This document shows, piece after piece, positions 1 through 61,035 of a DNA stretch of 64,000 nt; position 1 is the stretch's first letter; each line of letters begins with the position of its first letter. The stretch is from positions 3,286,001 to 3,350,000 of the forward strand of contig NZ_CP045119.1 in NCBI RefSeq assembly GCF_011492945.1, given 5' to 3'. The position numbers and the translations under genes are program-made. Under the pieces are notes generated by a model. It made no database searches. It was not told the origin of the DNA and saw only the letters and a program-made list of their open reading frames with translations. This DNA is from Rubrobacter tropicus. GTDB taxonomy: Bacteria; Actinomycetota; Rubrobacteria; Rubrobacterales; Rubrobacteraceae.

Positions 1-24
1 CCGCCGCATCGTAGAGGCGGCCGG

Positions 25-11072: not shown

Positions 11073-11621
11073 ATGGGACCACGCGAAGTCTCTTTCAGGA
11101 GGCTGCGGTCTTCTGATCTGGATCTCCTGCACCGCTGGCTCAACGCTCCCCACGTCCTCCGGTGGTGGTACGACGAGGGAACCTCTTACCGGGAGATCGA
11201 GGAACGGTACCTGCCCCGTATCGAGGGCCGGGAAACGGTGAAGCCGTTCGCGATCCTGCACCAAGACAACCCGATCGGCTACATCCAGTCCTACCCCATC
11301 TCAGACGGGGGCGACGAACAGTACGCTGCCCTGGTAGACGTAGAGGCCTCGGCTGGCGTCGACCTCTTCATCGGAGATCCGAGGTACGTTCACCGGGGCC
11401 TGGGACAGTACATCGTCCGCGCATTCCTCTCCGAACACGTCTTCTCGAACCCCGGTGTAGAGGTTTGCGCAATCGGGCCAGAACCGAAAAACAAGGCCGC
11501 GATCCGGGCCTACGAGAAGGCCGGCTTCCGGTTCTTCAAGACCGTCCAGATCCCCGGAAAACCGGAGACCGAGTACCTGATGACGCTAACCAGGAAAGAG
11601 TTCGAGGGACATTTTGACTGA
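11073..11621 (+). CDS. GNAT acetyltransferase, AAC(6')-like
   Basis: GCN5-family N-acetyltransferase resembling aminoglycoside 6'-N-acetyltransferases: FRRLRSSDLDLLHRWLNAPHV near the start, YIQSYPISDGGD in the middle, then DLFIGDPRYVHRGLGQYIV (acetyl-CoA pyrophosphate loop) and PEPKNKAAIRAYEKAGFRF near the end. The frame can begin at a TTG at 11025 inside the MBL gene, but the ATG at 11073 places the conserved FRRL segment where the family usually starts. It overlaps the next gene by 8 bp. A housekeeping or siderophore-type acyltransferase role cannot be excluded; drug resistance is not shown. Confidence 0.82.
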   Translation: MGPREVSFRRLRSSDLDLLHRWLNAPHVLRWWYDEGTSYREIEERYLPRIEGRETVKPFAILHQDNPIGYIQSYPISDGGDEQYAALVDVEASAGVDLFIGDPRYVHRGLGQYIVRAFLSEHVFSNPGVEVCAIGPEPKNKAAIRAYEKAGFRFFKTVQIPGKPETEYLMTLTRKEFEGHFD

Positions 11622-13194
11622 TCGGACAAATGTCCGCTACGACGCCATCGTTGTCGGCTCGGGTCACAACGGGCTTATTGCCGCGGCGTACCTGGCGAGG
11701 GCGGGCAAGAAGGTATTGGTTCTGGAGCGGCGGGGGGTCATCGGCGGGGCTACCGTGACGGAGGAGCCGTGGCCGGGGTACAGGATCTCGACCTGCTCCT
11801 ACGTCTGCAACCTGTTGTTGCCGGAGGTGATCCGGGACCTCGGCCTCGTCCGCCACGGCTACGACGTCCGTCCGCTCGATCCCCAGTACTTCATCCCCTT
11901 CCCGGACGGCGGGCACCTGATCTCATACCTGGACGGCGGGAAGACGGCGGGACAGATAGCGAAGTTCTCAAAGAAAGACGTCGCGGCGTACGGCGCGTAC
12001 TGGTCGATGTGGGACCGGATCATCGCCAGGATGCGCCCGCTTTTGGACCTTCCCGCCCCTACGCGGCAAAACTTAGAGCGGGCCTTCGATGGGCGCGACG
12101 GCGAAGAGGACTGGCGGACGCTCACGAAGAAGAGCGTGGCGGAGGTCCTGGACGAGTATTTCGAGTCCGAGGAGCTAAAAGCGGTGCTCTGCGTGGGCGG
12201 CGTCATCGGGACGAACGCGGGCCCCCGCACCCCCGGCACGGCCTACGTCAAGTACCACCACATCCTCGGCGGGGTCGGCGGCCACCAGGGTGCCTGGGGC
12301 TACGTCCGCGGCGGCATGGGCGCCGTCTCGCAGGCGATAGCCTCGTCGGCGCGGGAGGCCGGGGCCGAGATCCTCACGAACGCCGAGGTGGCCGAGATAG
12401 ACATCCGGGAAGGCGTCGCGAGGGGCGTGCACTTGCGGGACGGCCGCTCCTTTGGGGCCCGCGTCGTCCTCTCGGGCGCCGACCCGCACCGGACCTACCT
12501 CGGCATGGTCGGCGAGAAGCACCTGCCGGAAGACCTCGTCGAGGGCGTCAAAGAGATGCGCGTCGAGGGATCGGTGGTGAAGGTGTTGCTGGCGCTCGGG
12601 GAGTTGCCCGATTTCTCTGCGCTCCCGGGAAAGGAGGCCGGGCCGCAGCACACGGGCGGCATCGTAATAAACCCATCCGTAGACTCGTTGCAGGAGGCGT
12701 GGGAAGAATCCGAACGGGGCGAGCCGTCCGCCCGGCCCTTCATAGACGGGTACATACAGAGCGCGACCGAAGACGGCCTCGCGCCGCCCGGCAAGCACAC
12801 GATGAGCCTGTTCTGCCAGTACGCGCCGTACCGGCTCGCGAGAGGAACCTGGGAGGGGCGCCGGGAGGAGATCGGCCAGAACATCATCCGGACGCTCGCG
12901 GAGTACGCGCCGAACGTTCCGGACGCCGTGGAGGGAATGGAAGTGCTCGGGCCGCCGGACATAGAGGCCAGGATCGGGATAACGGGCGGGAACATCTTCC
13001 ACGGCGAGATCCTGCCTGACAGCATGTTCGCCGACCGCCCCGTCCCGGGCTACGGCGGCTACCGCACCCCAATAGAGAACCTATACCTCTGCGGCGCCGG
13101 CACCTGGCCCGGCGGCGCCGTCTTCGGAGCCCCCGGCCGCAACTGCGCGAGAGAGGTGCTCGGGGCCGCCAGGGCCAGCCCACAACAAATCTGA
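11614..13194 (+). CDS. FAD-dependent oxidoreductase, phytoene-desaturase (CrtI)-like
   Basis: NAD(P)/FAD-dependent oxidoreductase of 526 aa. The N-terminal Rossmann motif is DAIVVGSGHNGLIAAAYLARAGKKVLVLE (about residues 9-38), followed by VIGGATVTEE; the C-terminus has NLYLCGAGTWPGGAVFGAPGRNCA, the CrtI/pyridine-nucleotide-disulfide signature. A TTG start overlaps the acetyltransferase gene. This subfamily is often labelled phytoene dehydrogenase-related, but no carotenoid genes are nearby, so a carotenoid role is doubtful. The surrounding amine and aldehyde oxidation genes suggest oxidation of a small substrate instead (inference). Confidence 0.82.
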   Translation: MTDRTNVRYDAIVVGSGHNGLIAAAYLARAGKKVLVLERRGVIGGATVTEEPWPGYRISTCSYVCNLLLPEVIRDLGLVRHGYDVRPLDPQYFIPFPDGGHLISYLDGGKTAGQIAKFSKKDVAAYGAYWSMWDRIIARMRPLLDLPAPTRQNLERAFDGRDGEEDWRTLTKKSVAEVLDEYFESEELKAVLCVGGVIGTNAGPRTPGTAYVKYHHILGGVGGHQGAWGYVRGGMGAVSQAIASSAREAGAEILTNAEVAEIDIREGVARGVHLRDGRSFGARVVLSGADPHRTYLGMVGEKHLPEDLVEGVKEMRVEGSVVKVLLALGELPDFSALPGKEAGPQHTGGIVINPSVDSLQEAWEESERGEPSARPFIDGYIQSATEDGLAPPGKHTMSLFCQYAPYRLARGTWEGRREEIGQNIIRTLAEYAPNVPDAVEGMEVLGPPDIEARIGITGGNIFHGEILPDSMFADRPVPGYGGYRTPIENLYLCGAGTWPGGAVFGAPGRNCAREVLGAARASPQQI

Positions 13195-13222
13195 CAGGCT
13201 GAAATGCTGACCAACTGACAAG
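13193..13222 (+). repeat. Copy of the GCTGA intergenic repeat at a stop codon
   Basis: This 30-bp stretch starts inside the TGA of the CrtI-like gene and is 27/30 identical to the reverse complement of 23701-23730, which spans the end of the MFS gene. It contains the words GGCTGAAATGCTGA and CTGACAAG typical of the dispersed family. Confidence 0.75.
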
Positions 13223-13244
13223 CTGCCGACCATAGGGAGGCCAA

Positions 13245-14694: not shown

Positions 14695-14849
14695 AGCTGT
14701 CAGCTTTTTGGGTTTGGCCGGTGGCTAACCGTAGGCTGTGAACCGCTCTGCGCACTACTGTAAGGCGACTCGCTGGATTCGATACTCCAGCGAGTCGCGC
14801 CGTCGGCGGTCGGCTTTTGGCCCTGGCTGGAAGCTGATGGCTGACAGCT
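14695..14849. repeat. Intergenic repeat with terminal inverted repeats
   Basis: A 155-bp spacer element bounded by the 10-bp inverted pair 14695-14704 (AGCTGTCAGC) and 14840-14849. It begins 8 bp after the aldehyde dehydrogenase stop and encloses the long hairpin at 14765-14798. It belongs to the GCTGACAGC family dispersed through the window. Confidence 0.7.
14765..14798. terminator. Perfect 13-bp stem-loop, possible terminator
   Basis: GCGACTCGCTGGA at 14765-14777 pairs perfectly with 14786-14798 around the 8-nt loop TTCGATAC. It lies 77 bp after the aldehyde dehydrogenase stop. There is no T-run directly after it, so termination would be atypical; the stem itself is unambiguous. Confidence 0.6.
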
Positions 14850-14863
14850 GACCGCTATACCGC

Positions 14864-22485: not shown

Positions 22486-23712
22486 GTGTTTCTTCGTGCC
22501 GCAAAGGCGTTCCGGGGTTTCGATCGTCGGGTGTGGCTCCTGCTCTTCGCTATGGTCGCGTTCAGGTTCGGGCACGGGCTGTACTTCCCGTTCAGCTCGA
22601 TCTACTTCCACAACGTCCTCGGCATCCCGCTCTCCCTGGTCGGCGTGGGCCTCGCCGTCTTCGCCGCTTCCAGCGTCGTCTCGGGCCTCGTCGCCGGCCC
22701 CCTCACGGACCGCTACGGGCGCAAACCGACGATGCTCGTCGCCCTCTGCGGGAGCTCCGCGAGCTTCTTCGGCTTCGCCCTGATCGACGGTTTCGCCGGA
22801 TACCTCGCCGTCTCGGCGGCCCACGGGCTGCTCGGCTGGTCCATGTTCGAGGCCTCCCGCAATGCCATGGTCGCCGACGTCACCCAACCGGGGGCGCGCT
22901 CCCGCGCCTACGGCCTCGTCAGGGTCGGCGGCAACGTCGGATGGGCCGCGGGGCCCATGGTGGCGGGTTTGGTCTCCGCCGCGGCGGCCGGCTCCGCGGG
23001 CGTCTACCCGAAGCTCTTCGTCGGCACCTCCGTCCTGACGGCGCTCGTCGCCCTCGCCCTCGCCCTGACCGTCAGGGAGTCGCTCCCTTCGCGGCGGGAG
23101 GCCGGAACCGGGAAGAGGGGCAAACGCGGCCTGCGGGAGGCCTTCACGGACGGGCCATTCGTCCTTCTCCTCGGCGTTGGGGTGCTGCTCTACTACGTCT
23201 TTACGCAGGACTGGCAGGCCCTGCCCATCTACGCCAAGAACTTCGTGGGCGCGACGGACGGGCAGATAGGGTTCTTCCTCGGGGCCAACGGTCTCATGGT
23301 CATCCTGTTCCAGCTCCCCGTCTCCTACCTCATAGACCGCGGCTCGAAAGTGATGGCGCTCCTCGCCGGAGCAACCCTCTTCGCCCTCTCGTCCGCCACG
23401 CTCCTCCTGACCGAGTCTTTCGTTGGCATCGTAATCGCCTTCGTCCTCTTCTTCACCCTGGCCGAGATGGTCCTGGAGGTGGCAGGCGCGGCGCTGGCGG
23501 CCGAGATCGCCCCCGTACACCTGCGGGGAACCTACCTCGCCCTCTTCGGGGCCTGCTTCGGCGCCGCCTGCGGCGTCAGCCCCATCGTCGGCGGCGCGCT
23601 CCTGCAGGCCGAACTGCCGGACGTGATCTGGACGATCCAGCTGGTAGCCGCCCTCATAGCCGTGTCCGGCCTGCTGGTGCTGGCAGCGCTACGTAGAGAG
23701 CTTGTCAGCTAG
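22486..23712 (+). CDS. MFS family transporter
   Basis: Major facilitator transporter, 408 aa, about 12 transmembrane segments. The loop 2-3 motif GPLTDRYGRKPTM is intact, and the mid-loop is basic (SLPSRREAGTGKRGKRG). The ORF can begin at ATG 22453, but that codon lies in repeat DNA and upstream of a TATCAT box that would drive a leaderless mRNA from GTG 22486, so the latter is preferred. The last codons (Leu-Val-Ser-stop) come from a repeat copy. Drug or metabolite export is likely; substrate unknown. Confidence 0.85.
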   Translation: MFLRAAKAFRGFDRRVWLLLFAMVAFRFGHGLYFPFSSIYFHNVLGIPLSLVGVGLAVFAASSVVSGLVAGPLTDRYGRKPTMLVALCGSSASFFGFALIDGFAGYLAVSAAHGLLGWSMFEASRNAMVADVTQPGARSRAYGLVRVGGNVGWAAGPMVAGLVSAAAAGSAGVYPKLFVGTSVLTALVALALALTVRESLPSRREAGTGKRGKRGLREAFTDGPFVLLLGVGVLLYYVFTQDWQALPIYAKNFVGATDGQIGFFLGANGLMVILFQLPVSYLIDRGSKVMALLAGATLFALSSATLLLTESFVGIVIAFVLFFTLAEMVLEVAGAALAAEIAPVHLRGTYLALFGACFGAACGVSPIVGGALLQAELPDVIWTIQLVAALIAVSGLLVLAALRRELVS

Positions 23713-23913
23713 TCAGCATTTCAGCCCGTCAGCAAGTCGTCCGTGCGCGTCAGGCCTTCCGTACTCGAACCGCTTCGAAATACGCGACCGGGTAGGGCTA
23801 CGGGCGGCAAAAAGCTGACGGGCTGAGAGCGAGGGCCGAAGGCCCGAAGCGTGCCGAGAGCGGAGCCCTTAGGGCGGAGCGTGCCGAGAGCGGAGCCCTT
23901 AGGGCGGAGCGTG
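23701..23913. repeat. Modular intergenic repeat with two tandem 30-bp units
   Basis: The element spans the MFS stop and ends directly at the stop codon of the PP2C gene. It contains GGGCC-GAA-GGCCC (23833-23845) and two exact 30-bp units at 23851-23880 and 23881-23910, each holding GCCC-TTA-GGGC flanked by GCGTGCCGAGAGC. The left end 23701-23730 matches 13193-13222 in reverse complement (27/30). Confidence 0.85.
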
Positions 23914-26064
23914 CTAGTCCTCCGCCACGCGGAGGACTAACAGCGCGAGGTCGTCTCTGGGATGACCTTCCTGGAATTCGAGGACGGCGTTCTTGAGGGT
24001 GCGGGCCACGTCTTCGGCGTGTTGGCCCGCGCTGGCGGCGAGGATCTGGTGTAGCCGGTCTTCCCCGAAGAAGCCGCCGTCGGGGGAGCGGGCCTCGGTG
24101 ACGCCGTCGGTGTAGAAGACGAGCGTCTCCCCGGGCATCAGGCGCATGTGGGTGTCTTTTAGCTCCGCGTCGGGGAAGACGCCGAGGGCGCGGCCCGGGC
24201 AGCTCACCTCCTCGACGGATCCGTCGGTGCGCACGACGAGGGGCGGCGGGTGTCCGGCGCGGGAGAGGTCCAACCCGACACCCTGGGCGCCGTCCAGGGG
24301 TTCCAGGCGGGCGCAGGCGGCCGTGCAGAAGCGGTCCTCGGGGAGCTGGCGGAGCATGGCTTCGTTAAGGGCGGAGAGGAGTTCCGAGGGCCGGTCGTCG
24401 GTCATGGTTACGGCGCGGATGGTGTAGCGGGCCAGGGCCGTGACCGCCGCCGCCTCGGCGCCCTTGCCGCGCACGTCGCCTATGGTGCAGATCCAGCCGT
24501 CCTCTATGGTGTTTATGACGTCGTAGAAGTCCCCGCCGACCTCGTTAGCCTCGCCCGCGGGCAGGTACTCGGCGCCCAGCTCGACGCCCGGTATCTCGGG
24601 CAGGACGGGCGGCAAAAGGCTCCTCTGGAGGGTGTGCGCGATCTCGCTGCGGTCCCTGTACAGGCGGGCGTTGTCAACCGCCAGCGCGCACCGGTAGGAG
24701 AGGTTCTCGGCGAGCAGGAGGTCCTCGTCGTCGTAGCGGCGTCCGGGGCCGGAGGAGACGAGGGTCATGGCGCCAAGGGTCCGGCCGCGGGCCAGAAGCG
24801 GCACGCTCATCAAGGAACGGGGCTCCAGGGCGCGGAGCAGCTCGCGGTGCTCGCCCCCGAGCTCCCGCTCGTAGAAGACGCGCCCCGGAAGCTCGGGGAC
24901 GAGGACCGACCTCCCGGTCCTCAACACCTCGGCCGTGCTGCCGGGGTCGTCCTCCCCGAAGGAGCGGTGCCCCCGCAGGCGGACCAGGAGGTCCTCTTTC
25001 TCGGGGTCGGCGTGGGAGGAGGCGAGCTGGTGGACGGCGCCGTTCTCCTCGACGATGTCGAGCAGGCACCAGTCCGCGAGGTCCGGGACCATCAGGCTCG
25101 TTACCCGCCGGAGCGTCTCCTCGTAGTCCAGGGATGCCGAAAGGGCAGGTCCCGCGGCGGCGAGCAGGGCCAGGCGCTTGCGGGCCGCGACGGCCTCGGC
25201 CCTGGCGAGCTGCTCCCGGACGAGCAGGAGGTCGCGCTCCTCCTCCACCCTCTTGCGCTCGCTTATGTCCTCGACCACGGAGATAAAGTACCGGGGCTCG
25301 CCCGATGCCTCGCGCACGAGCGAGACCGTCAGGTTCACCCAGACGGGCGAGCCGTCCTTCCTGACGTACCGCTTCTCCATCGAGTAGACCTGCCTCTCGC
25401 CCCGGAGCATGGCCCGCGCGTGTTCGAGGTCCTTCCCGAGGTCGTCCGGGTGGGTGATGTCCCCGAAGGTCTTTTCGAGCAGCTCCTCCTCGGTGTAGCC
25501 GACGATCTCGCAGAGGCGCCGGTTGACCCGCAGCCACCGGCCTTCGGTCGAGATCTGGGCCGCCCCGACGGCGGCGTGCTCGAAGGTCGCCCTGAAGCGC
25601 TCCTCGCTCTCGCGCAGGACCTCCTCGATCCTGCGCCGGTCGGTGATGTCGTTTTGGACCCCGACGAAGTTGGTGAGGCGCCCCTTTTCATCGTGGACCG
25701 GCGAGACGTACAGCTCGTTCCAGAAGAGAGCGCCGCTCTTGCGGTAGTTCCTCAAGACCACCCGGCATTCCCGCTCTTCCCGCAGGGCCGCCCTCAGCTC
25801 GTCGAGCGCGGGCTGGTCGTGCTCGCCGTTCTGCAGGAAGCGACAGTTGCGGCCCATTACCTCGTCCGCCGGGTAGCCGGAGATCCTCTCGAAGGCCGGG
25901 TTGACGTAGACGATGGGGTTGTCGGGGACTTTCGGGTCCGTGATGACGATCCCGTTCGAGCTAGCCGCCACGGCCCGGTCGAGCAGGCGCCGCATCTCCT
26001 CCGGGGCCGAGAGCCCCGGAACGTCGCGCCCGGCCGGTGAGAACGAGGAGTCCAAGAACCGCAT
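23914..26064 (-). CDS. LOV-PAS-GAF-PP2C (SpoIIE-type) phosphatase, putative blue-light receptor
   Basis: A 716-aa multidomain signalling protein. Residues about 25-145 form a LOV domain with the flavin signature GRNCRFLQ (photoactive Cys74) and [29 protein letters not shown]; about 150-275 is a second PAS domain with PAC end; about 305-470 is a GAF domain; about 490-716 is a PP2C/SpoIIE phosphatase ([45 protein letters not shown]). Light would act on a serine phosphatase of an anti-sigma antagonist type (family knowledge plus inference). ATG 26064 has GGGGAGGG about 8 nt upstream; the frame opens 13 codons earlier. No partner-switching genes are in the window. Confidence 0.9.
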
Positions 26065-26968: not shown

Positions 26969-28345
26969 ATGCGGCTGGTGGTAGTGGGCGGGGTTGCGGC
27001 GGGAACGAAAGCGGCGTCACGGGCGCGGCGGGTAGACCCTGAGGTGGAGATCACGGTCTACCAGGAAGAACCCGAGCCTTCCATCAGCGAGTGCGGCCTC
27101 CCCTACCTCCTCTCGGGCATGGTGGAAAGCCGCGACCGGCTCGTGGCCCGAACCCCGGAGAAGTTCGCGGAGCAGGGCATCGAGATGAAGGTGCGCCACA
27201 GGGTCGAGAAGGTACTCCCCGACACCAGGAAGCTTTTCGTGCGCGACCTCGCGACCGGCGGGACCTTCGAGGACTCGTACGACCGTCTCGTTATCGCCAC
27301 CGGTGCCAGCGCCGTCATGCCCCCCATTCCCGGCGCCGACCTCGACGGAATCTTCGAGTTCCGTTTCCTGACGGACGCCGACGAGGTGATGCGCCACACG
27401 AAGGAGCGCCGGCCCGCGAAAGCGGTAATCGTTGGCGGCGGGTACATCGGGCTTGAGGTGGCCGAGAACCTGTGCCGCATCGGGATGGAGGTGGCCCTGA
27501 TCGAGGGCGAAGACAGGGTCGCCCTCGCATACGGCCCCGAGGTCTCAGAGAGGGTGGAGGCGGAACTCGAAAGAAACGGCGTGGACATCTTTACCGGCGA
27601 GAGGGTCGAGGCGTTCGTCGGCGACGGGCGGGTTCGGGCCGTAAAGTTCGGCGAAGGGCAGGTCGAGGCGGACCTCGTAATCCTGGGCGTCGGCGTGAAG
27701 CCCTCCGTGGAACTGGCCCGGGAGGCGGGGGCGGAGATCGGGGCCACCGGCGCCATTCGGGTGGACAAAGGTATGAAGACGAACCTCCCCGACGTGTGGG
27801 CCGCGGGCGACTGCGTCGAGACCACCAACCTGGTAAGCGGCGAGCCGTCGTGGGTCCCGCTCGGCGACACGGCCAACCAGATGGGCCGCGTCGCCGGCAC
27901 CAACGCCGCCACCGGCGAAGACACTTTGGAGTTCCCCGGCGTCCTCGGCACCGGCATCTTCCAGGTCTACGACCTCGGCGTCGGCAAGACGGGCCTCTCC
28001 GAAAAAGACGCGGAAGCCGCGGGCTACGAGACCGTCAGCGCCGGCGTCGAGGCCCGCGACCGGGCGGGCTACTACCCGGGCGCCGAGAAGGTCTTTCTCA
28101 AGCTCATAGCCGACGCCGGGACGGGCCGCATCCTCGGGGCCGAGGCCGCGGGCTCCGGCGCCGACAAGCTAACCGACATCTGCGCGACGGCCATCTGGGG
28201 CGGCCTCTCCTACCCCGACCTCGTCAACATAGATCTCGCCTACTCCCCCCCCTTCGGCCCCGCCCTGAGCCCCGTCATCCAGGCCGCCACCATCCTCTCC
28301 GGAAAGTTCGACCGCGCCCGCGAAGGCGTCAGGGCTTCGGAGTAG
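26969..28345 (+). CDS. FAD-dependent disulfide oxidoreductase (CoA-disulfide reductase/NADH oxidase-like)
   Basis: Flavoprotein of 458 aa of the Nox/CoADR group. It has the N-terminal Rossmann motif VVVGGVAAGTKAASRAR, a single redox Cys42 in SISECGLPY, a second dinucleotide motif VIVGGGYIGLEVAENL (about 153-168), WAAGDCVE and the C-terminal dimerisation domain. Single-Cys enzymes of this group reduce CoA disulfide, persulfide or O2 using NAD(P)H. It lies after sodA, consistent with a redox-defence role (inference). ATG start; no strong ribosome site, but GGGGAGGA is 10-17 nt upstream. Confidence 0.88.
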   Translation: MRLVVVGGVAAGTKAASRARRVDPEVEITVYQEEPEPSISECGLPYLLSGMVESRDRLVARTPEKFAEQGIEMKVRHRVEKVLPDTRKLFVRDLATGGTFEDSYDRLVIATGASAVMPPIPGADLDGIFEFRFLTDADEVMRHTKERRPAKAVIVGGGYIGLEVAENLCRIGMEVALIEGEDRVALAYGPEVSERVEAELERNGVDIFTGERVEAFVGDGRVRAVKFGEGQVEADLVILGVGVKPSVELAREAGAEIGATGAIRVDKGMKTNLPDVWAAGDCVETTNLVSGEPSWVPLGDTANQMGRVAGTNAATGEDTLEFPGVLGTGIFQVYDLGVGKTGLSEKDAEAAGYETVSAGVEARDRAGYYPGAEKVFLKLIADAGTGRILGAEAAGSGADKLTDICATAIWGGLSYPDLVNIDLAYSPPFGPALSPVIQAATILSGKFDRAREGVRASE

Positions 28346-28446
28346 GCTACAGGCGTCAGGGCGCTTCGGGCCTTCGGCCCTAGCTCTCATGCATCAGGCC
28401 TTGTCGTCGACGCCCGGACCCGAATACCACACCTGAAGCCTAGATT
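28345..28446. repeat. Intergenic repeat after a stop codon, convergent region
   Basis: Starting in the TAG of the oxidoreductase gene, the words GCTACAGGC and GTCAGGG match the repeat after the lipoprotein gene at 61535, and the hairpin GGGCC-TTC-GGCCC lies at 28368-28380. CACACCTGAAGCCTAGATTTC at the far end reaches the stop of the minus-strand gene. It separates two convergent genes and may serve as a two-way terminator. Confidence 0.7.
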
Positions 28447-30006
28447 TCAGAACCTCTCCACGACGGTCCTCGCGAGCATGTGCAGCGGCAGGTAGTCGGG
28501 GCCGCCGGCCTTCGAGTCGGTGCCGCTCATTCCGAAGCCGCCGAAGGGCTGGACGCCGACCAAAGCGCCGGTTATTCCGCGGTTGAAGTAGACGTTGCCG
28601 GCCTTGAACTCCCGGCGGGCGCGTTCTAGGTGGTCGCGGTTTTTGGAGTAGACGCCGCCCGTGAGGCCGTAGGGGGAGTCGTTGGCGAGCCTTAGGGCGT
28701 CGTCGAAGTCGCGGGCCTTTATGACGGAGAGGACGGGGCCGAAGATCTCCTCCCGCGCAACTTTAGCGTCGGGCTCGACGGCGAAGATGGTCGGGCTGAC
28801 GAAGTAGCCGTTCTTCGGGTCCCCAGGGTCCTCGCCGAGCACCCTGTCACCCTCCTGCTTGCCGGCGTCGACGTAGCCCGAGACCTTCTCGAACTGGGGC
28901 TCGCTTATGACGGGGCCGACGTTGACGGTCGCGCCGTCTTCTTCTGCGGGAAGTCCTATCTTGAGCGCCCGCGCGTTTTCGAGGACCTTGCCGAGCACCT
29001 CGTCGTAGACGTCGGCGTGGAGGATGGCCCGGGATGCCGCGGAGCACTTCTGGCCCGAGTAGCCGTAGGCGCTCTTGACGATGTCGGCCGCGGCGGAGTC
29101 GAGGTCGGCGGAGTCGTCTATGACCATCGCGTCCTTGCCGCCCATCTCGGCTATGACCCGCTTGACCCAGCGCTGGTTCTCTATCTGTCTGGCGGCCAGC
29201 TCGTTTATCCTCAAGCCCGTCTTCATCGAGCCGGTAAAGGAGATGAAACGCGTACGGGCGTCGCCGACGAGGTAGTCCCCGATGTCCGAGCCGTAGCCGG
29301 GAAGGAAGTTCAGGACGCCCTCGGGGAGGCCCGCCTCCTCGAAGATCTCCGCCACCACGGCGCCGATCACGCTCGTGAACTCGGACGGCTTCATGACGAT
29401 GGTGTTGCCGGTGACGATGGCCGCGCTCGACATCCCGGTAAGTATCGCGGTCGGGAAGTTCCAGGGCGCTATGATGACGCCGACGCCCATCGGCTGGTAG
29501 GAGTAGCGGCTCTCCTCGCCCGGTATCGCGTAGATCTCGACGCCGTCCTTGAGGCGGAGCATCTCGCGGGCGTAGTACTCCAGGAAGTCTATGCCCTCCG
29601 CGACCTGGGCGTCGGCCTCGTTCCAGGGCTTGCCGCCCTCGAAGACCTCCCAGGCCAGAAGCTCGAACCGGCGGCGCTTCATGATCGCCGCGGCCCTGAG
29701 CAGTATCCTGGCCCGCGACTCGGGCGTCGTCCTGCTCCAGTGCTCGAAGGCGCCCGTCGCCACGTCGAGGGCCATGTCGGCCTCGCGCTCCGTGGCGGCC
29801 GCGGTGCGGCCCACGATCTGGGAGGGGTCGGCCGGGTTGACGGAGACGATCTCACCGTCCGTCTCGATGGGCTTGCCGCCTATGATGGCCGGGTGGCTCT
29901 TGCCGAGTCTGCCCCCCACGTCTTTCAAGGCGGCGCGCATCTTGGCGACGTTCGCCTCGTCCGACCAGTCCAGGTACTCTTCGTTCTTGTAGGGTATGAG
30001 GCCCAT
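28447..30006 (-). CDS. pruA: L-glutamate gamma-semialdehyde (P5C) dehydrogenase
   Basis: Second step of proline breakdown: oxidises glutamate semialdehyde to glutamate with NAD. The 519-aa protein starts MGLIPYKNEEYLDWSDEAN, has APWNFPTAILTGMSSAAIVTGN, ERVIAEMGGKDAMVIDDSADLD-like glutamate region (VIAEMGGKDAM), the catalytic SGQKCSAASR and the C-terminal GVQPFGGFGMSGTDSKAGGPDYL block specific for P5C dehydrogenases. The ATG at 30006 has AGGAGC 5 nt upstream; sequence further upstream in the same frame is overlap with the proline dehydrogenase gene. It is 8 bp downstream of that gene, forming a two-gene put operon. Confidence 0.95.
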   Translation of the reverse strand: MGLIPYKNEEYLDWSDEANVAKMRAALKDVGGRLGKSHPAIIGGKPIETDGEIVSVNPADPSQIVGRTAAATEREADMALDVATGAFEHWSRTTPESRARILLRAAAIMKRRRFELLAWEVFEGGKPWNEADAQVAEGIDFLEYYAREMLRLKDGVEIYAIPGEESRYSYQPMGVGVIIAPWNFPTAILTGMSSAAIVTGNTIVMKPSEFTSVIGAVVAEIFEEAGLPEGVLNFLPGYGSDIGDYLVGDARTRFISFTGSMKTGLRINELAARQIENQRWVKRVIAEMGGKDAMVIDDSADLDSAAADIVKSAYGYSGQKCSAASRAILHADVYDEVLGKVLENARALKIGLPAEEDGATVNVGPVISEPQFEKVSGYVDAGKQEGDRVLGEDPGDPKNGYFVSPTIFAVEPDAKVAREEIFGPVLSVIKARDFDDALRLANDSPYGLTGGVYSKNRDHLERARREFKAGNVYFNRGITGALVGVQPFGGFGMSGTDSKAGGPDYLPLHMLARTVVERF

Positions 30007-36668: not shown

Positions 36669-37049
36669 TTGCGGGAGAACGTCGTCGGATACGAGCCCCT
36701 ATCGAGCATCGCGGTCGGGCGTGAGAGCGAGGAGATGTGCCTGCTGGCCCGTCTCTTCAACGGCTTCTCCAACTCGACCCGGCTCTCCATCTTGCTGCTC
36801 CTCGTGCAGCGGGGCGAGATGAAAGTAGGGGAACTCGTAGAAGAGCTCGAAGCCCCGCAACCCCGCGTCTCCGACCACCTCCGCTGCCTCTCGGGGTGCG
36901 GGTACGTGCAGGTCAGGCGCGAGGGCCGCAACGCCTACTACTCCGTCTCCGACGAACGCATCCTGACGATCCTCGGCCTCGGCGAAGAACTACTCCGCGA
37001 CAACCGCGAGTGCCTGGAAGCCTGCGACACCATAAAGAAGGATTTTTAG
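36669..37049 (+). CDS. ArsR/SmtB family metal sensor, CmtR-like
   Basis: Winged-helix repressor of 126 aa. The recognition region PQPRVSDHLRCLSGCGYVQVRREGR carries Cys73 and Cys77 in the same spacing as the Cd/Pb-sensing cysteines of mycobacterial CmtR (HLxCLxxCG); further cysteines 24, 115 and 119 (ECLEAC) could complete the site. It would bind its operator without metal and release it on binding soft metals (family knowledge). A TTG start has AAAGGAG 8 nt upstream. No metal pump is adjacent; the only candidate targets nearby are its own promoter and the membrane-protein gene at 37172. Confidence 0.85.
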   Translation: MRENVVGYEPLSSIAVGRESEEMCLLARLFNGFSNSTRLSILLLLVQRGEMKVGELVEELEAPQPRVSDHLRCLSGCGYVQVRREGRNAYYSVSDERILTILGLGEELLRDNRECLEACDTIKKDF

Positions 37050-37050
37050 G

Positions 37051-37134
37051 GCTGTCAGCTCTCAGCCCGCTGCGGCTTCGCCTCCGCTCTCAGCCATCAG
37101 CCCTTTGCTTTTGCTGAAAGCCGATGGCTGAGAG
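37051..37134. repeat. Intergenic repeat with 12-bp inverted arms
   Basis: CTCTCAGCCATC (37087-37098) is the exact inverse of 37123-37134. The element begins right at the ArsR-gene stop with GGCTGTCAGCTCTCAGC and separates convergent genes, so the hairpin may act as a terminator in both directions. Confidence 0.75.
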
Positions 37135-37171
37135 AGTTCTGCGGATCGCCCCATACTTTCTTCGGAACCTC

Positions 37172-37648
37172 TCATGCATTACTCGTCCTCGGAGGGCGCG
37201 AGAACTTCCAGTAGACGAGCGCCAGCAGGATCACCAGCCCCACGGCCACCGCGCCGAACCGGATCTGCTCGTCTTCTGTCATGAACGCCCGGATCAAACC
37301 GTAGAACAGCGTGAAGACCGCCCCGAGGGTCGCCCCTTCGCCGATCACGGGCATACCGCTGATCCAGACTAGCCCCGTCACCAGCAACAGCACCGCCACT
37401 CCGATCGAGATGGAGGCGACAACCAGGTTGTAGTTCGAGAAATCTTCCCGATAAGCCTTCTCGTCGGCCCGAAACTCTTCCATCTTCCGCTGCTCCTCCG
37501 GCGTGCGCTCCTGACCGGGCCCCTGCTCCATCCCGGAAGGGTAAGCCGGGTACCGCGGCTCCTGGTAGAACGCCGAGATCCCAAACCCCACGAAAGCAAC
37601 CACCAGCAACGCTATGGCCAGCGCGTACAACGGCTTCAACGGCGACAT
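37172..37648 (-). CDS. Small polytopic membrane protein, unknown
   Basis: Not recognised. The 158-aa product has hydrophobic segments at about 7-27, 75-94, 100-120 and 128-148, with a hydrophilic loop of about 45 residues between the first two (PGQERTPEEQRKMEEFRADEK region). There are no cysteines or other obvious catalytic residues. ATG start with AGGAGG 7-12 nt upstream. Its promoter at 37745-37774 overlaps a 40-bp perfect palindrome, so expression is probably controlled tightly by a repressor. Confidence 0.72.
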   Translation of the reverse strand: MSPLKPLYALAIALLVVAFVGFGISAFYQEPRYPAYPSGMEQGPGQERTPEEQRKMEEFRADEKAYREDFSNYNLVVASISIGVAVLLLVTGLVWISGMPVIGEGATLGAVFTLFYGLIRAFMTEDEQIRFGAVAVGLVILLALVYWKFSRPPRTSNA

Positions 37649-38304: not shown

Positions 38305-39417
38305 ATGGCGCAGGCGCGAGATTTGAGGCAGGCGATAGATTCGATGGCGGGCCGCGACGGGCCCATGCTTTCGGCTTACGTGAGCGTGAACGCCGCCATC
38401 CCGGAGAACCAGGAGCGGGCCTACCTGGTGCGCCTCAGGGACGCCATGAACGACGAGGGCGTCCCTGAAAGTCTGCAGGATCGGGTCCGCGAGAGCCTTG
38501 AAGGGGAGACCCATCCCGGGGCCAGGACGCTCGCCGTCTTCGCGGACGAGGGCGGGCTCTTCGAGGTCTACCGGCTGCAGGTGGACCTGCCGGAGTCGAG
38601 CCGCTGGGGCGACCCGTACGTGGCGCCGCTAACCCTCGTGCTCGACGAGTACGAGGCCTACGGGGCGGTCGTACTGGACGCGGAGCGGTTCAGGTACTTC
38701 GTCGTCTCGCCGCTGGCGGACGCCGAAGGCGGCGAGCAGGTCAAGGGCAACGGTTTCAGGGAGTTGGACGTGGATCCCAGCGAGCCGTACCCCAGGGGCG
38801 GGATGGACCAGGAGCCGACCAGCCGCCGGACGGAGGCGAACGTCCACAAGTTCTACAACCAGCTCGGCGAGCTGACGCGGGACCTTACCCTCCGCGAGGG
38901 GGTGAAGCGCCTGATCCTGGCCGGCCCGAAAGAGAGGACCGCTGAGTTCCGCAACCTGCTGCCCAACGAGGTCAAGGACCGCGTCGTCGCCGAGGAACAT
39001 TTGGACCTGAGCGCTTCGGAAGGAGAGATCCTGGACCGCCTGGAGGAGATCCGGGAGCGGGCCGAGCACGAGCGCGCGGGCGAGCTTCTGGCGGAGATCC
39101 GGGAATCCGGCGTGCGCGGTCCCGGGGAGACCATAAAAGCCCTCCAGGAAGAGAACCGCGTCTACCACCTCGCGGTCCTGTGGGACCTCGACGGCGAGGT
39201 GCGCTGGTCTGACGCGGACGGCCTCGCCATAATGGACGTTACGCGGGAGAAGAGCCCCTACTCCGGCGAGCCGACCCGCGTGCGGCCTCTCACCGACGTT
39301 CTTGTCGAGCTCGCGGCTGCCCGCGGCGCCCGCCTGGACTTCATGCGCGGCGAGAACGAGAACACCGACACTTTGCGCGACGAGTTCGGCGGCATAGCGG
39401 GCCTCACCCGCTTTTAG
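38305..39417 (+). CDS. VLRF1/baeRF-type (eRF1-like) protein
   Basis: A 370-aa soluble protein resembling bacterial-archaeal eRF1-related proteins (VLRF1 group), which are thought to act in peptide release or rescue on ribosomes. The N-terminal MLSAYVSVNAAIPENQERAYLVRL, the central VLDAERFRYFVV and VHKFYNQLGELTRDLTLREGVKRLILAGP segments, and a C-terminal L7Ae-like part (VYHLAVLWDLDGEV) fit that plan. No canonical GGQ was found; GGMDQ occurs near residue 170. Monocistronic, followed by a strong terminator at 39419-39451. The family call rests on pattern memory and is moderate. Confidence 0.65.
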   Translation: MAQARDLRQAIDSMAGRDGPMLSAYVSVNAAIPENQERAYLVRLRDAMNDEGVPESLQDRVRESLEGETHPGARTLAVFADEGGLFEVYRLQVDLPESSRWGDPYVAPLTLVLDEYEAYGAVVLDAERFRYFVVSPLADAEGGEQVKGNGFRELDVDPSEPYPRGGMDQEPTSRRTEANVHKFYNQLGELTRDLTLREGVKRLILAGPKERTAEFRNLLPNEVKDRVVAEEHLDLSASEGEILDRLEEIRERAEHERAGELLAEIRESGVRGPGETIKALQEENRVYHLAVLWDLDGEVRWSDADGLAIMDVTREKSPYSGEPTRVRPLTDVLVELAAARGARLDFMRGENENTDTLRDEFGGIAGLTRF

Positions 39418-39418
39418 A

Positions 39419-39451
39419 GCGGAATGCGGGGGCATCGCCCCTGCATTCCGC
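39419..39451 (+). terminator. 15-bp stem terminator after the VLRF1-type gene
   Basis: 39419-39433 pairs with 39437-39451 (one mismatch) around the loop ATC. It begins 1 bp after the stop codon. Confidence 0.75.
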
Positions 39452-39545
39452 GCGGTCAGCGATCAGCCCGCTCCGGCTCCGCCTGCGCTGTCAGCTATCA
39501 GCTTTTCTGCTCTTGCTGAGAGCTGACTGCTGATGGCTGACAGCT
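39452..39545. repeat. Intergenic repeat with 16-bp inverted arms
   Basis: GCTGTCAGCTATCAGC (39487-39502) pairs with 39529-39544 with one mismatch. Contains CCGCTCCGGCTCCGCCTGCG, a module also found at 50370 and 57602. Member of the dispersed family. Confidence 0.75.
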
Positions 39546-39700
39546 TCACTCTCCCGCATGTTTCGTTTTTGTTAAGAGTATTGCGAAATATGGGTTGGGG
39601 TGTTAGCTTTATTGTGTCATCTGCCGTGTCTCGGCGGTGACATCAGGGTCGTAAAAACACTATTCTTGGTTCCCGCACGGGGAAGAAGCAAGGAGGAGCG

Positions 39701-40489: not shown

Positions 40490-40626
40490 CTGTTAGCTTT
40501 CAGCGGTCAGCCTTCAGCTTTTTCTGCTGGGGGGCTGGCCGCTTCCGTTTCGGGTCTTCCGGCGTATCGAATCTGCCCAGCTGACGGCTGAAAGCGGAGG
40601 CCGAAGGCCCAAGCGGGCTGATAGCT
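40489..40626. repeat. Modular intergenic repeat between sortase and sixA
   Basis: The element starts in the sortase stop codon. 40497-40511 pairs with 40580-40594 (14/15), and GGCC-GAA-GGCC lies at 40599-40609. It lies between convergent genes next to the long hairpin at 40627-40669. Confidence 0.75.
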
Positions 40627-40669
40627 GATGGCAGAAGCGATTCGCTTTCAGCGAATCGCTTCTGCCATC
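40627..40669 (-). terminator. 19-bp perfect stem-loop at the sixA stop codon
   Basis: 40627-40645 is the exact reverse complement of 40651-40669; the 5-nt loop holds the sixA TGA. The last six codons of sixA therefore pair with their own inverted copy in the 3' untranslated region. A terminator or RNA-stabilising role is likely. Confidence 0.7.
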
Positions 40670-41160
40670 GCGCGCAGCATCTTCGGGGTGGCGAGCCAGC
40701 GTAGTTGACCGGTGCCTGGTGACAGCGCGCCGTCGAAGCGGACGCACACTACGCCGCCTTTCTTTATGGTGATCTCGGCGCCGTTCGCCTCGCCGGTGAG
40801 CAAGTACGAGGCGAGCTCGTGCAGGCCGGGCCGGTGCCCGACCAACGCAACGGTCCCAGCCGCTTCGTAAGCTTCGAGGACCCGCGCGGCCCTATCCGGC
40901 GGCAACGTCGGTTCGAGCGAAGCCCAGGCCTTCGGCGCGGGCCAGCCTTCCAGCTCGGCCAGGACCTCGGCCGTCCGCCACGCCCGCTCGAAGGGGCTGC
41001 TGAGGAGCGCGTCGACCCGGGGCGCGAGTTGGACGAGACCTGGGAGAGAGTGCCGAAAGGCTTCCTCTCCCTCGGGTGTCAGGGGACGGAGCGAATCGTC
41101 GGGCCAGCGCTCCGGGTCGCGCCCGTGGGCGGATGCGTGGCGTACCAGGTAGACATCCAC
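40648..41160 (-). CDS. sixA: SixA-type histidine phosphatase
   Basis: Short histidine-phosphatase-superfamily protein of 170 aa. The N-terminal VYLVRHASA motif supplies Arg7 and the phospho-accepting His8, and a second His is in ALVGHRPGLHE. SixA-type enzymes remove phosphate from phosphohistidine proteins; here its gene lies 6 bp after a CYTH-CHAD polyphosphate-binding gene, a pairing that suggests phosphate or polyphosphate metabolism. The 3' end is embedded in a 19-bp perfect hairpin. Confidence 0.85.
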   Translation of the reverse strand: MDVYLVRHASAHGRDPERWPDDSLRPLTPEGEEAFRHSLPGLVQLAPRVDALLSSPFERAWRTAEVLAELEGWPAPKAWASLEPTLPPDRAARVLEAYEAAGTVALVGHRPGLHELASYLLTGEANGAEITIKKGGVVCVRFDGALSPGTGQLRWLATPKMLRAMAEAIR

Positions 41161-50342: not shown

Positions 50343-50649
50343 GCTCCTCCCTGCGGTCGTCGCAGCACGCTCCGGCTCCGCCTCCGCTTGTCAGCCCGGC
50401 GCTTCGCGCCTCTCAGCACGTTCCCTTCGGAGGCTTTCAGCCAGTCGTCTTCATCCGGCCTTTCGCTGCGGAAGCCGCAACCTTTCGGCTTCCGCGGCCC
50501 GGCTTCGCCCTGCGCGGCCAGAGAGCTGATAGCTGAAAGCGAGGGCCTGCTAAGGCCCGACGCGTGCCGAGAGTGGAGCCCATAGGGCGGAACGTGCTGA
50601 CAAGCGAAGCCCGAAGGGCGCAGCGGGCGCGACGACCGCAGGGAGGAGC
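50343..50649. repeat. 307-bp palindromic modular element with 21-bp inverted ends
   Basis: 50343-50363 is the exact reverse complement of 50629-50649. Inside are hairpins GCGC-TTC-GCGC (50399-50409), GCCC-GAA-GGGC (50609-50619), GCCC-ATA-GGGC and GGGCC with AGGCCC, joined by GCTGATAGCTGAAAGC and GTGCTGACAAGC words. It fills the 392-bp gap between the two sortase genes and ends next to the sortase stop. No open reading frame with coding features is inside. Confidence 0.85.
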
Positions 50650-50652
50650 CCG

Positions 50653-51315
50653 CTACTTCAGCTCTCCCTGAACGACTAGGCGCCTGGAGTAGTCAGGGAG
50701 GGTGCAAGTCTGTAGGCTTACTACGCTCTTGCCCTTGATAGGGCGCAGGACGCGGACGGCGCTCGGGTCGACGACGAACTTGTCGAAGACTTTGTAGGTG
50801 TAGCGTTCGCCGCCGGCGTCGGTGAGGATGATCTCATCCCCCTCCTGCAGCCTGTCCAGGTCCCAGAAGACGAGGTTGCTCTTGGTCCCCGGGTAACCGA
50901 CCCTGTGGCCGGCGATGTAGACGTTGGCGCCTCTCTGCCAGGGGAACCCCGTGCCCTTCACGTGGGCGGTGCCGTCGTGCATGGCGTCCTCGTACTCGGG
51001 CTTCGCGGCGTCGTAGACGGGTACGTCATCGACCCGGTCCAGCTTCGGGACGGTCAACTTGAGGGTCTTCTCCTTCGGGGCGTCCACCCTGGGGCCGCGG
51101 ACCTTCTCGACTATCCTCTCGGGGAGGCTCCTGGCGAACCTGTCCTGCACCTCTTCGGTGACTTTGTCGGAGACTTTCTCGGGGGTGTTGGCCGAGGCCG
51201 GCCCTCCCCCGCCAAAGAGCGAGTACAAGAGGAGCCCGAGCCCGACGAAGAGCACACCGGCCGCGGCGACCGCCGTCATCACCTTCCCGGTCAGCCGACC
51301 CTTTACCTTCTTCAT
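50653..51315 (-). CDS. Sortase (class E-like)
   Basis: Sortase of 220 aa: membrane segment (about 12-34), a charged spacer (KVSDKVTEEVQDRFARSLPERIVEKV, about 47-72) and the catalytic domain with His137 (YIAGHR), Cys204 (SLQTC) and Arg212 (RRLVVQ). ATG start, GGGGGT about 9 nt upstream. Paralogue of the sortase at 49679. No pilin or LPXTG protein is present in the window, so its substrates are encoded elsewhere. Confidence 0.92.
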   Translation of the reverse strand: MKKVKGRLTGKVMTAVAAAGVLFVGLGLLLYSLFGGGGPASANTPEKVSDKVTEEVQDRFARSLPERIVEKVRGPRVDAPKEKTLKLTVPKLDRVDDVPVYDAAKPEYEDAMHDGTAHVKGTGFPWQRGANVYIAGHRVGYPGTKSNLVFWDLDRLQEGDEIILTDAGGERYTYKVFDKFVVDPSAVRVLRPIKGKSVVSLQTCTLPDYSRRLVVQGELK

Positions 51316-57600: not shown

Positions 57601-57888
57601 CGCTCCGGCTTCGCCTACGCTTGTCAGCACGCCCGCTTCGCGGGCTTTCAGCACGCTTCGGCCTGCTCCGCAGTCCTCGCTTTCAGCACGCCTCCTTCGG
57701 AGGCTCTCAGCTAGAGTCGTCCCAGAGCGCTGCCTCTCGCAACATCCGAACTGTGCCGCCAGGCGCTCCCCGGTAACGCCCCGCACGGCTGAAAGCTGAC
57801 AAGCTGAGAGCGAGGGGCCGCGGAGGCGAAGCCGGAGCAGAGCCGATGCGTGCTGAAAGCGGAGGCCCTAGCCGGAGCGGGCTGACTA
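57601..57888. repeat. Largest cluster of modular hairpin repeats
   Basis: Contains GCCCGC-TTC-GCGGGC (57631-57645), GCCTCC-TTC-GGAGGC (57690-57704) and several GCTTTCAGCAC / GTGCTGAAAGC linkers in inverted order on the two flanks. It runs into the TAG stop of the MBL gene (57886-57888). It fills most of the 366-bp gap 57520-57885; no gene is supported within. Confidence 0.85.
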
Positions 57889-58794
57889 GCTCTCTTTGCG
57901 GCGTTTCTCCACGTACCTGAGGATCCCGGCGGTCAGCATCTCGTAATTGCCCGCGAGGTCGTAGCGTTCGGACTCTTCGGGGTCGGCGCCTTCGGCGAGC
58001 ATCTCGGCGTCGCCCTTGGTCCTGAGCTCCTCGGAGATCTCCTCCGGCGATGCGCCCTCGTCTACCTGATCTTCGACGAAGAGCAGCCAGTCCTGGAGGC
58101 GCTGTTCGAGCTCCGAGAGGTGACGGTCCACGTCGTCGTAGCTTCCGAAGTGGGTGGGGTGGAGGGTGCGGGGATCCATGGTACGGATCTTCTCTATGCT
58201 CCGTACCCACGCCTCGACGTCGATCTCGGGCGGCGGCGTCGGCGGCCTTACGTACGACTGCCCCGGCAAACGGATACCAGCGACGTCACCCGCAAAGAGC
58301 GACCCGGAATCCGGCTCGAGGTAGGCGAGGTGGTGGTAGGCGTGCCCCGGCGTGTCGTGGGCGACGAGTAACCCGCCCGCGGTCTCGACCTCGTCCCCGT
58401 CGCCGAGCACGACGAGGCGCTCCTCAGGCACGGGGTGGGCGTCGCCCCAGAGCTCTTCCATCCTGTCGCCGTAGATGCGGGTCGCGCTCTTGAGAAGCTT
58501 CGACGGGTCGGCCAGGTGCGGGTAGCCGAGCTCGTGGACGTAGAAGGTGGCGTTGGGCAGGATCTTTGCGAGGTGGCCGGAGGCTCCCGCGTGGTCGAGG
58601 TGGATGTGCGTCAGGAAGACTTCTTGCACGTCCTCCGGGGAGACGCCGTTCGTCTTCAGGCCGGTCTGCAGGTGATCCAGGCACGTGGTCGGGCCCGTCT
58701 CGATTATGGCGGCCGAGCCGTCGCCGATCAGGAGGAAGGAGGCTATCACCTGCTCTGTCCCGAGGAAGTTCAGGTCTACCGTCTCTATCTTCAT
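57886..58794 (-). CDS. MBL-fold metallo-hydrolase
   Basis: Metallo-beta-lactamase-fold enzyme of 302 aa with THIHLDHAGASGHL (His63, His65, Asp67, His68), a DTPGHAYHHLAYL segment and LFAGDVAGI for the remaining ligands. The C-terminal quarter is a helical domain (DRHLSELEQRLQDWLLFVEDQVDEG). ATG with GGGAGGGG about 7-14 nt upstream. The minus-10 TATAAT is at 58832-58827. Substrate unknown; its 3' end abuts a repeat cluster. Confidence 0.86.
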   Translation of the reverse strand: MKIETVDLNFLGTEQVIASFLLIGDGSAAIIETGPTTCLDHLQTGLKTNGVSPEDVQEVFLTHIHLDHAGASGHLAKILPNATFYVHELGYPHLADPSKLLKSATRIYGDRMEELWGDAHPVPEERLVVLGDGDEVETAGGLLVAHDTPGHAYHHLAYLEPDSGSLFAGDVAGIRLPGQSYVRPPTPPPEIDVEAWVRSIEKIRTMDPRTLHPTHFGSYDDVDRHLSELEQRLQDWLLFVEDQVDEGASPEEISEELRTKGDAEMLAEGADPEESERYDLAGNYEMLTAGILRYVEKRRKES

Positions 58795-60096: not shown

Positions 60097-60102
60097 GGCT
60101 TT

Positions 60103-60321
60103 CAGCGGTCGGCTTTCAGCTACCGGCTTTCATACCGGCCCCGCGTACCATGCGGTGCCCGGTCATATCGCGCTAGTTGATCCCGAACCGGTCCTCCACA
60201 ATCGGGGTAAGACGGTCGCCCTCAGCGCGGGCCTGCGCGAGCACGAGCCCTCGAGTCCGTACGGGCTGTGTTTGAAGAACGGTCCGAGAGCCGCCAGCAA
60301 CAAGCTGAAAGCCGACCGCTG
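60103..60321. repeat. 219-bp element bounded by 18-bp perfect inverted repeats
   Basis: CAGCGGTCGGCTTTCAGC (60103-60120) is the exact inverse of 60304-60321. It starts 7 bp after the ApgM stop; the right arm stops immediately before ATG 60322, and the next codons of the UDG gene (ATGGCTGAAAGC) continue the repeat word. Confidence 0.8.
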
Positions 60322-61035
60322 ATGGCTGAAAGCGGCGGCGCGAGCCGCCTTGAACTCGCTACGCTGGAGCGCGAAGTCACTTCCTGCCGCGCCTGCCCGC
60401 GGTTGGTCGAGTGGCGGGAGAGGGTCGCGCGGGAGAAGCGGGCGGCTTACAGGGACTGGGAGTACTGGGGGCGGCCGGTGCCGGGGTTCGGGGACCCAGG
60501 GGCGCGGGTGGTCGTTTTCGGGCTCGCTCCGGCGGCGCACGGGGCGAACAGGACGGGGCGGTTCTTTACGGGGGACCGGTCGGGCGATTTCTTGTTCGCG
60601 GGGCTCCACAGGACGGGCTTTTCGGACAAGGCCGTCTCGCGGACGATAGAGGATAACGTCCGCCTATCTGGGCTCTGGATCTCGGCCGCCGTCCGGTGCG
60701 CGCCGCCGCAGAACAAACCGACCCCCACGGAGCGCGACGCCTGCCTCCCCTACGCGGCGCGCGAGATAGAGATCCTGCAGGCAAACGTCGTCGTCTGCCT
60801 CGGCGCTTTCGCGTGGGACGCGGCCCTGCGCCTCCGCAACGTCAGGCCGAAGCCGAAGTTCGGCCACGGCGCGGAGGCCCGGGCCGGCGACCTGACCCTC
60901 GTCGGCTGCTACCATCCATCCCAGCAGAACACCTTCACCGGCGTCCTCACCCCTCCCATGCTCGACGCCGTCCTCCTCAGGGCGCGGGATCTCGCCGGCC
61001 TGAACAGGCCGGAAGCGGGCCACCCCGTCAGATAA
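60322..61035 (+). CDS. Uracil-DNA glycosylase, family 5 (UDGb-like)
   Basis: DNA repair glycosylase of 237 aa from the chosen start. Fe-S cluster cysteines are Cys22 and Cys25 (SCRACPRL), Cys126 (VRCAPPQ) and Cys141; motif 1 is GLAPAAHGANRTGR, where family 4 has GEAPG and family 5 lacks the acidic water-activating residue; motif 2 is CYHPSQQNTFTG. These features fit family 5, which removes uracil and some deaminated purines. The ATG at 60322 lies in repeat DNA, so the first few residues (MAESGG) derive from the repeat; a GTG at 60268 is also in frame. Confidence 0.88.
   Translation: MAESGGASRLELATLEREVTSCRACPRLVEWRERVAREKRAAYRDWEYWGRPVPGFGDPGARVVVFGLAPAAHGANRTGRFFTGDRSGDFLFAGLHRTGFSDKAVSRTIEDNVRLSGLWISAAVRCAPPQNKPTPTERDACLPYAAREIEILQANVVVCLGAFAWDAALRLRNVRPKPKFGHGAEARAGDLTLVGCYHPSQQNTFTGVLTPPMLDAVLLRARDLAGLNRPEAGHPVR

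Follow-up and report, generated by a model that had tools for sequence, protein, structure and literature searches.

Between the genes of Rubrobacter tropicus lies a repeat whose hairpin stems differ from copy to copy and remain paired, which raises the question of what kind of element it is and how the pairing is maintained. It forms a cluster at 57601-57888 of the window, the 64,000-nucleotide stretch analysed here (G000:C1:3286001-3350000 of a 4.58-Mb genome). The second contig of this genome matches, over part of its length, a Rubrobacter marinus plasmid at 81%. The first-pass annotation had proposed a dispersed family with covarying stems, arising by selection on, or copying of, a folded structure. 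The family, the covariation and the copying stand; the REP-like nature and the UUCG tetraloop that it also suggested do not. With a probability of about 0.68, the repeat consists of non-autonomous IS630 (Tc1/mariner) elements inserted at TA dinucleotides and stop codons, the stems of which are kept paired mainly via template switching.

The repeat is indeed dispersed and intergenic. In a 400-kb spread sample of the R. tropicus genome, supplemented with targeted stretches, 63 kb of intergenic DNA contain 58 copies of GCTTTCAGC and 392 kb of coding DNA a single one; the underlying gene calls come from a simple codon-usage script and are approximate (ORF 57886-58794, for example, was overlooked). 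The 13-base core GCTGAAAGCTGAC is found 128 times (67 + 61) across the genome, and its reversed control 0 times. Its chief motif is a heptamer that reads GCTGANR, or YNTCAGC on the opposite strand, and has a density of only 0.07/kb in the coding DNA of the sample. GCTGANRGCTGANRGCTGA is present 209 times (control 0), and the heptamers stand in tandem between genes, the arrangement that marks TAACTGA-type repeats. BLAST and HMM searches with the copy at 39402-39550 as the query yielded about 50 copies in the DNA examined, and 27 copies gathered on sequence similarity alone make up the alignment (A1). The covariance-model search that the annotation had called for was run with a model (R1) built on the first 135 alignment positions. 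At E<=1e-4 it finds at least 150 copies in R. tropicus, a lower bound in that every one of 150 scored candidates matched. It also gives 47 and 21 matches in two congeners (G006 and G008) and 4-5 each in G001, G002 and G004, with no match in G003, G005 and G007 or among 12 sampled genomes outside the genus. A known Rfam RNA family was rejected, as the search of the window returned 0 matches above the gathering score.

Two forms can be distinguished. The standard, MITE-like form is about 150-185 bp long, has many dispersed copies and contains no transposase gene. It starts with TA[AG]AGCGG, followed by a hairpin with a 15-bp stem (H1), TCAGC heptamers with a TTC/GAA cassette, and a T-rich spacer (TTTTTTGCTCTT). 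GCTGA heptamers come after the spacer, then hairpin H3 (GCAAAGAGG..CCTCTTTGC) in about half of the copies, and finally CCGCT[TC]TA. The second form, which includes 57601-57888, has on its left a string of cassettes, TCAGC(AC/CC)-[stem TTC stem]-TNTCAGC, and on its right the reverse of these; it lacks the AGCGG ends, and its pieces recur at many further places. Judged by their common modules, clusters such as 57601-57888 would be relatives of the MITE-like form. Because IS630-type ends are absent from this cluster, we can only infer its mobility.

The repeat is present at all ten places listed by the annotation (table), though not as one uniform element. Those at 39415 and 37033 are MITE-like; those at 57601, 50343 and 23701 consist of clustered hairpin cassettes and belong to a related type; and those at 13193 and 14695 hold heptamers for the most part. 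After its left end, the copy at 39415 continues with H1, the cassette and the heptamer arms, and it has no right-hand H3 or end; the site is free of the element in the relatives G003, G004 and G005. The copy at 37033 is placed between the convergent genes 36669-37049 and 37172-37648. The gap holding the 57601 cluster measures 292 bp in R. tropicus versus 82 bp in G004, and on its right the cluster ends on the stop codon (CTA, 57886-57888) of the minus-strand ORF 57886-58794. In G004, 69 bp of unrelated sequence take the place of the cluster at 50343. The genes that flank this cluster (49693 and 50658) are alike, being 73% identical over 300 bp.

Table. Copies of the repeat and their parts within the window (window coordinates).
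Feature	Position	Strand	Remarks
Best MITE-like copy in the window	39415..39548	+	Left end, TA-GAGCGG, falls on the stop of gene 38305-39417
Hairpin H1, 15-bp stem, ATC loop	39419..39451	+	Stem covaries between copies
Right heptamer arm GCTGAGAGCTGACTGCTGATGGCTGACAGC	39515..39544	+	Left arm of TCAGC units at ~39456-39505
Second MITE-like copy, centre only	37033..37145 (C1:3323033-3323145)	+	Left heptamers, GGCTTCGCC cassette, right heptamers
Convergent gap	40490..40670	.	Conserved older hairpin at ~40498-40545 and lineage-specific repeat addition with GGCC-GAA-GGCC hairpin
Perfect 20-bp stem, TTC loop	40627..40669	.	Directly adjoins heptamer array
57601-57888 cluster, left half	57601..57714	+	TCAGCACG-[stem TTC stem]-TNTCAGC cassettes (GCCCGC, GCCTCC)
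57601-57888 cluster, right half	57788..57888	+	GCTGA arms
Hairpin-cassette cluster	50343..50653	.	Bounded by exact 21-bp inverted repeat GCTCCTCCCTGCGGTCGTCGC / GCGACGACCGCAGGGAGGAGC
Cluster	23701..23917	.	TCAGC left arm, GGGCC-GAA-GGCCC cassette at right
Lone GGGCC-TTC-GGCCC cassette	28346..28400	+	Between convergent genes 26969-28345 and 28447-30006
TCAGC arm, ~190-bp centre, GCTGA arm	60100..60352	.	Gap of 244 bp versus 14 bp in G004
Inverted repeat GGCGACTCGCTGGA..TCCAGCGAGTCGC with GCTGA heptamers (14826-14855)	14696..14860	.	
Short degenerate GCTGA-type array	13193..13244	+	Directly 3' of the stop codon of gene 11614-13194

The seven stems on which the claim of covariation had rested are present: GCCCGC at 57631, GCCTCC at 57690, GGGCC at 23833 and 28368, GGCGC at 50398, and, by direct reading, those at 40599 and 50609. 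A check of the stem changes found them compensatory, with 8 of the 15 H1 pairs altered on both sides and 96.8% of cells paired. Across the 27 copies, 43 doubly changed cells in H1 stand against 8 wobble and 13 unpaired ones and comprise at least 9 different pair substitutions, the copies being related and the 43 cells hence not independent events. Pooled over four helices, 50 cells are doubly changed versus 18.9 in shuffles, and pairing of the whole structure drops from 92% to 30-45% when the partners are slid by 1-3 columns. The outer ends covary no more than in shuffles. The upper stems of 13 copies in G006 are widely different yet nearly perfect, with a bias towards intact stems because the model that found them rewards pairing. 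Intergenic triloop hairpins most often carry a TTC/GAA loop (17 of 123, with 12 distinct stems); in genes this class is not among the common ones. These 17 cassettes were picked as perfect hairpins and count as evidence only through their loop bias and shared flanks. The TTC hairpins fold as triloops closed by C-G instead of the suggested cUUCGg tetraloop. Pairing between the two free bases of facing heptamers was rejected because these bases are unpaired in 19-24 of the 27 copies, so what the heptamer arms conserve is their sequence and not a covarying stem. The older hairpin at ~40498-40545 has counterparts in G003, G004 and G005 (L199, L200 and L201), and these orthologues in four species show two-sided differences (GCGGAAGG..CCTTCCGC in G003, GCGGTCGG..CCGACCGC in G005).

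The MITE-like form is bounded by terminal inverted repeats, TA[AG]AGCGG and CCGCT[TC]TA, in a C-TA..TA-G context. Both ends are found in 15 copies, over which the 8 terminal pairs match at 91.9%; the right end is absent from 12 of the 27 aligned copies. A C precedes the left TA or TG in 22 of 30 copies, and TA is retained even where no upstream stop codon requires it (L206, L215, L218, L221 and L024). At C1:3368888, a 131-bp unit separates the halves of a site that reads GCTGC-TA-AAACC when empty and GCTGC-TA-[..]-TA-AAGG when filled, with TA on both sides. The addition at locus L228 measures about 98 bp, and the empty site reads CC-TAG-TC (C-TAG in G004); the filled site, C-TG-GAGCCG..CGGCTT-TAG, has TG for TA. 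At L205, 122 bp directly follow the stop codon, and G005 reads CTTCTAG there. At L205, L211, L224 and 39417, the relatives' counterpart of the stop codon on which the element starts stands in CTAG. TA thus flanks both sides cleanly at one junction only, and at one more with TG for TA, the chance of a TA match per site being about 1/16. The relatives are 75-89% identical, and at the other sites this divergence or a missing right end blurs the insertion boundaries. Twenty syntenic gaps have heptamers in R. tropicus, in G004 (a congener with about 84% identity) or in both, and most of them have heptamers in one of the two genomes only.

These ends match those of IS630-family elements. The relevant element of G010 (L249/L300) is 1140 bp long, has the ends TACAGCGGGTTGCGCGAA / TAGAGCGGTTGGCGCATA (also read as TACAGCGGGTTGCG and TAGAGCGGTTGGCG) and encodes a transposase that scores over the NCBIfam IS630 cut-off. 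The match is looser in G001, G004 and G017, where homologues begin TA[CG]AGC; in the same bacterial family, other IS630 elements start TAGAGC or TACAGC, mostly preceded by C. It is also short, at best 13 of 14 bases, and AGCGG is found at both ends in one full IS630 copy only. Within the same bacterial family, the IS630 elements L300, L312, L320 and L328 have TA[CG]AGC.. ends and intact or broken transposases. IS630 is reported to insert at TA with a preference for CTAG (Tenzen and Ohtsubo 1991, as referenced in PMC2170065, which also gives results on ISY100). The repeat is filed as an IS630-type MITE because of the insertions seen against relatives, the IS630-like ends and this TA/CTAG preference, and the element was probably once mobile. 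A search of the R. tropicus genome for a homologue of the matching G010-type transposase found none and so pointed to no present-day mobiliser, which counts against this reading; the single DDE_3 match there (L246) has no such ends and was rejected as an autonomous partner.

The placement of the copies is strongly biased. Convergent gaps hold 30 of 48, tandem gaps 18 and divergent gaps 0, against a background in the sample of 54, 189 and 50 gaps, respectively; the corresponding motif densities are 6.96, 1.77 and 1.12 per kb. The element starts no more than 10 nt from the upstream stop codon in 29 of 49 copies; in 13 copies, TA or TG together with the first base of the element makes up this codon. 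Recognition of the ends by an IS630-family transposase would have led to insertion at TA, mostly within CTAG and often at a TAG stop codon. The element's base after TA is A or G, which would leave the gene terminated by TAA or TAG, and insertions on stop codons may survive because the stop is restored in this way.

Once the element is in place, replication may switch template between the two arms of a hairpin, whereby one arm would be copied onto the other and the loop sometimes flipped. This would be the main reason why the stems drift yet pair, and selection for a hairpin at the gene end may add to it. Departures from pairing comprise 8 G.U and 9 A.C, and the H1 loop is found in both orientations, ATTGA in most copies and TCAAT in L170, L206, L213 and L224. 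Homogenised arms and inverted spacers are reported as a signature of inverted-repeat template switching (PMC8604942, PMC8794818). Template switching is favoured because double changes far outnumber one-sided ones, G.U and A.C are about equal, and loops are inverted; selection on hairpins acting in both transcripts would likewise give equal G.U and A.C. The varied yet nearly perfect upper stems of G006 agree with template switching. Matched arms and inverted loops point to such switching at replication, and the annotation's "copying of a folded structure" appears to be right.

It is possible, if rather doubtful, that the hairpins are instead candidate bidirectional terminators or protectors of 3' ends, so that selection on RNA would keep the pairing and usefulness would spread the repeat. 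Such a role would agree with the 4-6 fold enrichment in convergent gaps and the lack of copies in divergent ones, with the left edge on the stop codon, with the compensatory stem changes, and with the retention of the older hairpin in R. tropicus, G003, G004 and G005 despite the differences on both sides between G003 and G005. However, the same placement is expected of any insertion that genes and promoters cannot tolerate, and the equal frequency of G.U and A.C favours no strand. H1 is followed in the alignment by GCGGTCAGC and not by a U-tract, so the GC-rich hairpin with U-tract of an intrinsic terminator is not seen in the 27 copies. Moreover, repeats (40545-40666) were added beside the conserved hairpin, which implies that they were not needed there. 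Less credible is an origin without transposition, in which slippage and recombination copying produced the heptamer arrays and the cassettes are by-products. The period-7 heptamer is wider than the MITE, the same 19-mer being found in many phyla; dialects differ by species at the same gap edges; and heptamers are reported to be more common than other long simple repeats in many bacteria (Mrazek 2007, as cited in PMC4679880). Slippage predicts identical units, whereas the observed ones have a fixed 5-base core and two free bases, and it leaves the IS630-like ends, the whole-unit insertions and a 63:1 polarity unexplained.

That the repeat is of REP/BIME type and owes its movement to a RAYT (Y1) transposase is very improbable. 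The repeat does resemble REP/BIME sequences as an abundant palindrome with more than 100 intergenic copies close to gene ends. Its TA/CTAG ends and its size of 150-185 bp with several hairpins differ from theirs, and a RAYT search gave 0 PF01797 (Y1_Tnp) matches in R. tropicus, with control genomes positive. On this absence, and with the ends being IS630-like, the REP-like reading with a RAYT was rejected. As an IS630-type MITE, the repeat can be compared with the repeat unit of pneumococcus (RUP), of which about 100 intergenic copies of 107 bp with short IS630-like terminal inverted repeats and TA ends are described (PMC2229807). Copy number, IS630-like terminal inverted repeats, terminal TA and intergenic place are common to both. 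The Rubrobacter repeat differs in its length of 150-185 bp, separate hairpins, stem turnover, heptamer arms and stop-codon sites, and, unlike RUP with IS630-Spn1, no matching IS630 was found in its genome. ERIC and Correia (NEMIS) elements, palindromic, 100-200 bp long, with TA termini and in many cases intergenic (PMC2229807), are alike in palindromic MITE size, termini and location; however, they form one long end-to-end stem in place of separate short hairpins, and a sequence relation was not seen.

The heptamer palindrome is more widespread than the MITE. A scan of GTDB species genomes for the 19-mer GCTGAAAGCTGACGGCTGA gave at least 115 stretches (L041-L155), and the matches listed include Acidobacteria, Chloroflexi, Nitrospirae, Armatimonadetes, Bacteroidetes, Planctomycetes, Methylomirabilota, Omnitrophota, Deinococcota, Bacillota, Proteobacteria and others. 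In 26 of these genomes, selected because they match the 19-mer and hence no measure of prevalence, counts of GCTGANRGCTGANRGCTGA range from 1 to 317 (reversed control nearly 0). The order TCAGC arm, spacer, GCTGA arm is found in 63 clusters at the 115 loci listed versus 1 reversed, and prevails by 21 to 1 in the R. tropicus sample. A plain stem would permit either order of the arms, so the fixed polarity would not be accounted for by a stem. At the listed loci in other phyla, heptamers are not enriched in convergent gaps. Their polarity there also holds at gene 5' ends, on which ground a function as 3'-UTR sense signals only was rejected. The congener G004 (C118; L199, L257-L263) has another heptamer at the same gap edges, AGGYNTN on the left and NANRCCT on the right; by eye, this dialect mixes stop and non-stop triplets, and three-frame stop codons behind GCTGA were rejected as an explanation. 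Other period-7 arrays (TTGTCCG, GGTCTTT, TTTGCGT and GGTAACA) stand beside some of the 115 loci.

The MITE does not explain this wide palindrome, the arms of which occur in phyla without a demonstrated MITE. A tentative alternative is that TCAGC-spacer-GCTGA arms form one intergenic class across phyla, with shared machinery and dialects of the type AG-N-Y-N-T-N (third base C, G or T), and that the MITE acquired them. The TAACTGA heptamers of Beggiatoaceae, cyanobacteria and Bacteroidetes, described as direct repeats (PMC4679880), are likewise period-7 intergenic arrays. Their reverse complement, TCAGTTA, fits AG-N-Y-N-T-C in a by-eye comparison with GCTGANR, and a forward array that stands before a start codon has the polarity of a GCTGA arm. 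They differ in the third base of the unit, and palindromic pairs and hairpin cassettes are not part of their description. From sequence comparison, they look like a dialect of the GCTGA heptamer palindrome.

This likeness would connect the published TAACTGA heptamers with a palindrome that is more widespread and strictly oriented. The insertions suggest a way for a TA-targeting element to occupy stop codons harmlessly. With more than 100 paralogous hairpins in one genome, the turnover of stems becomes observable, and selection and template switching can be tested against each other.
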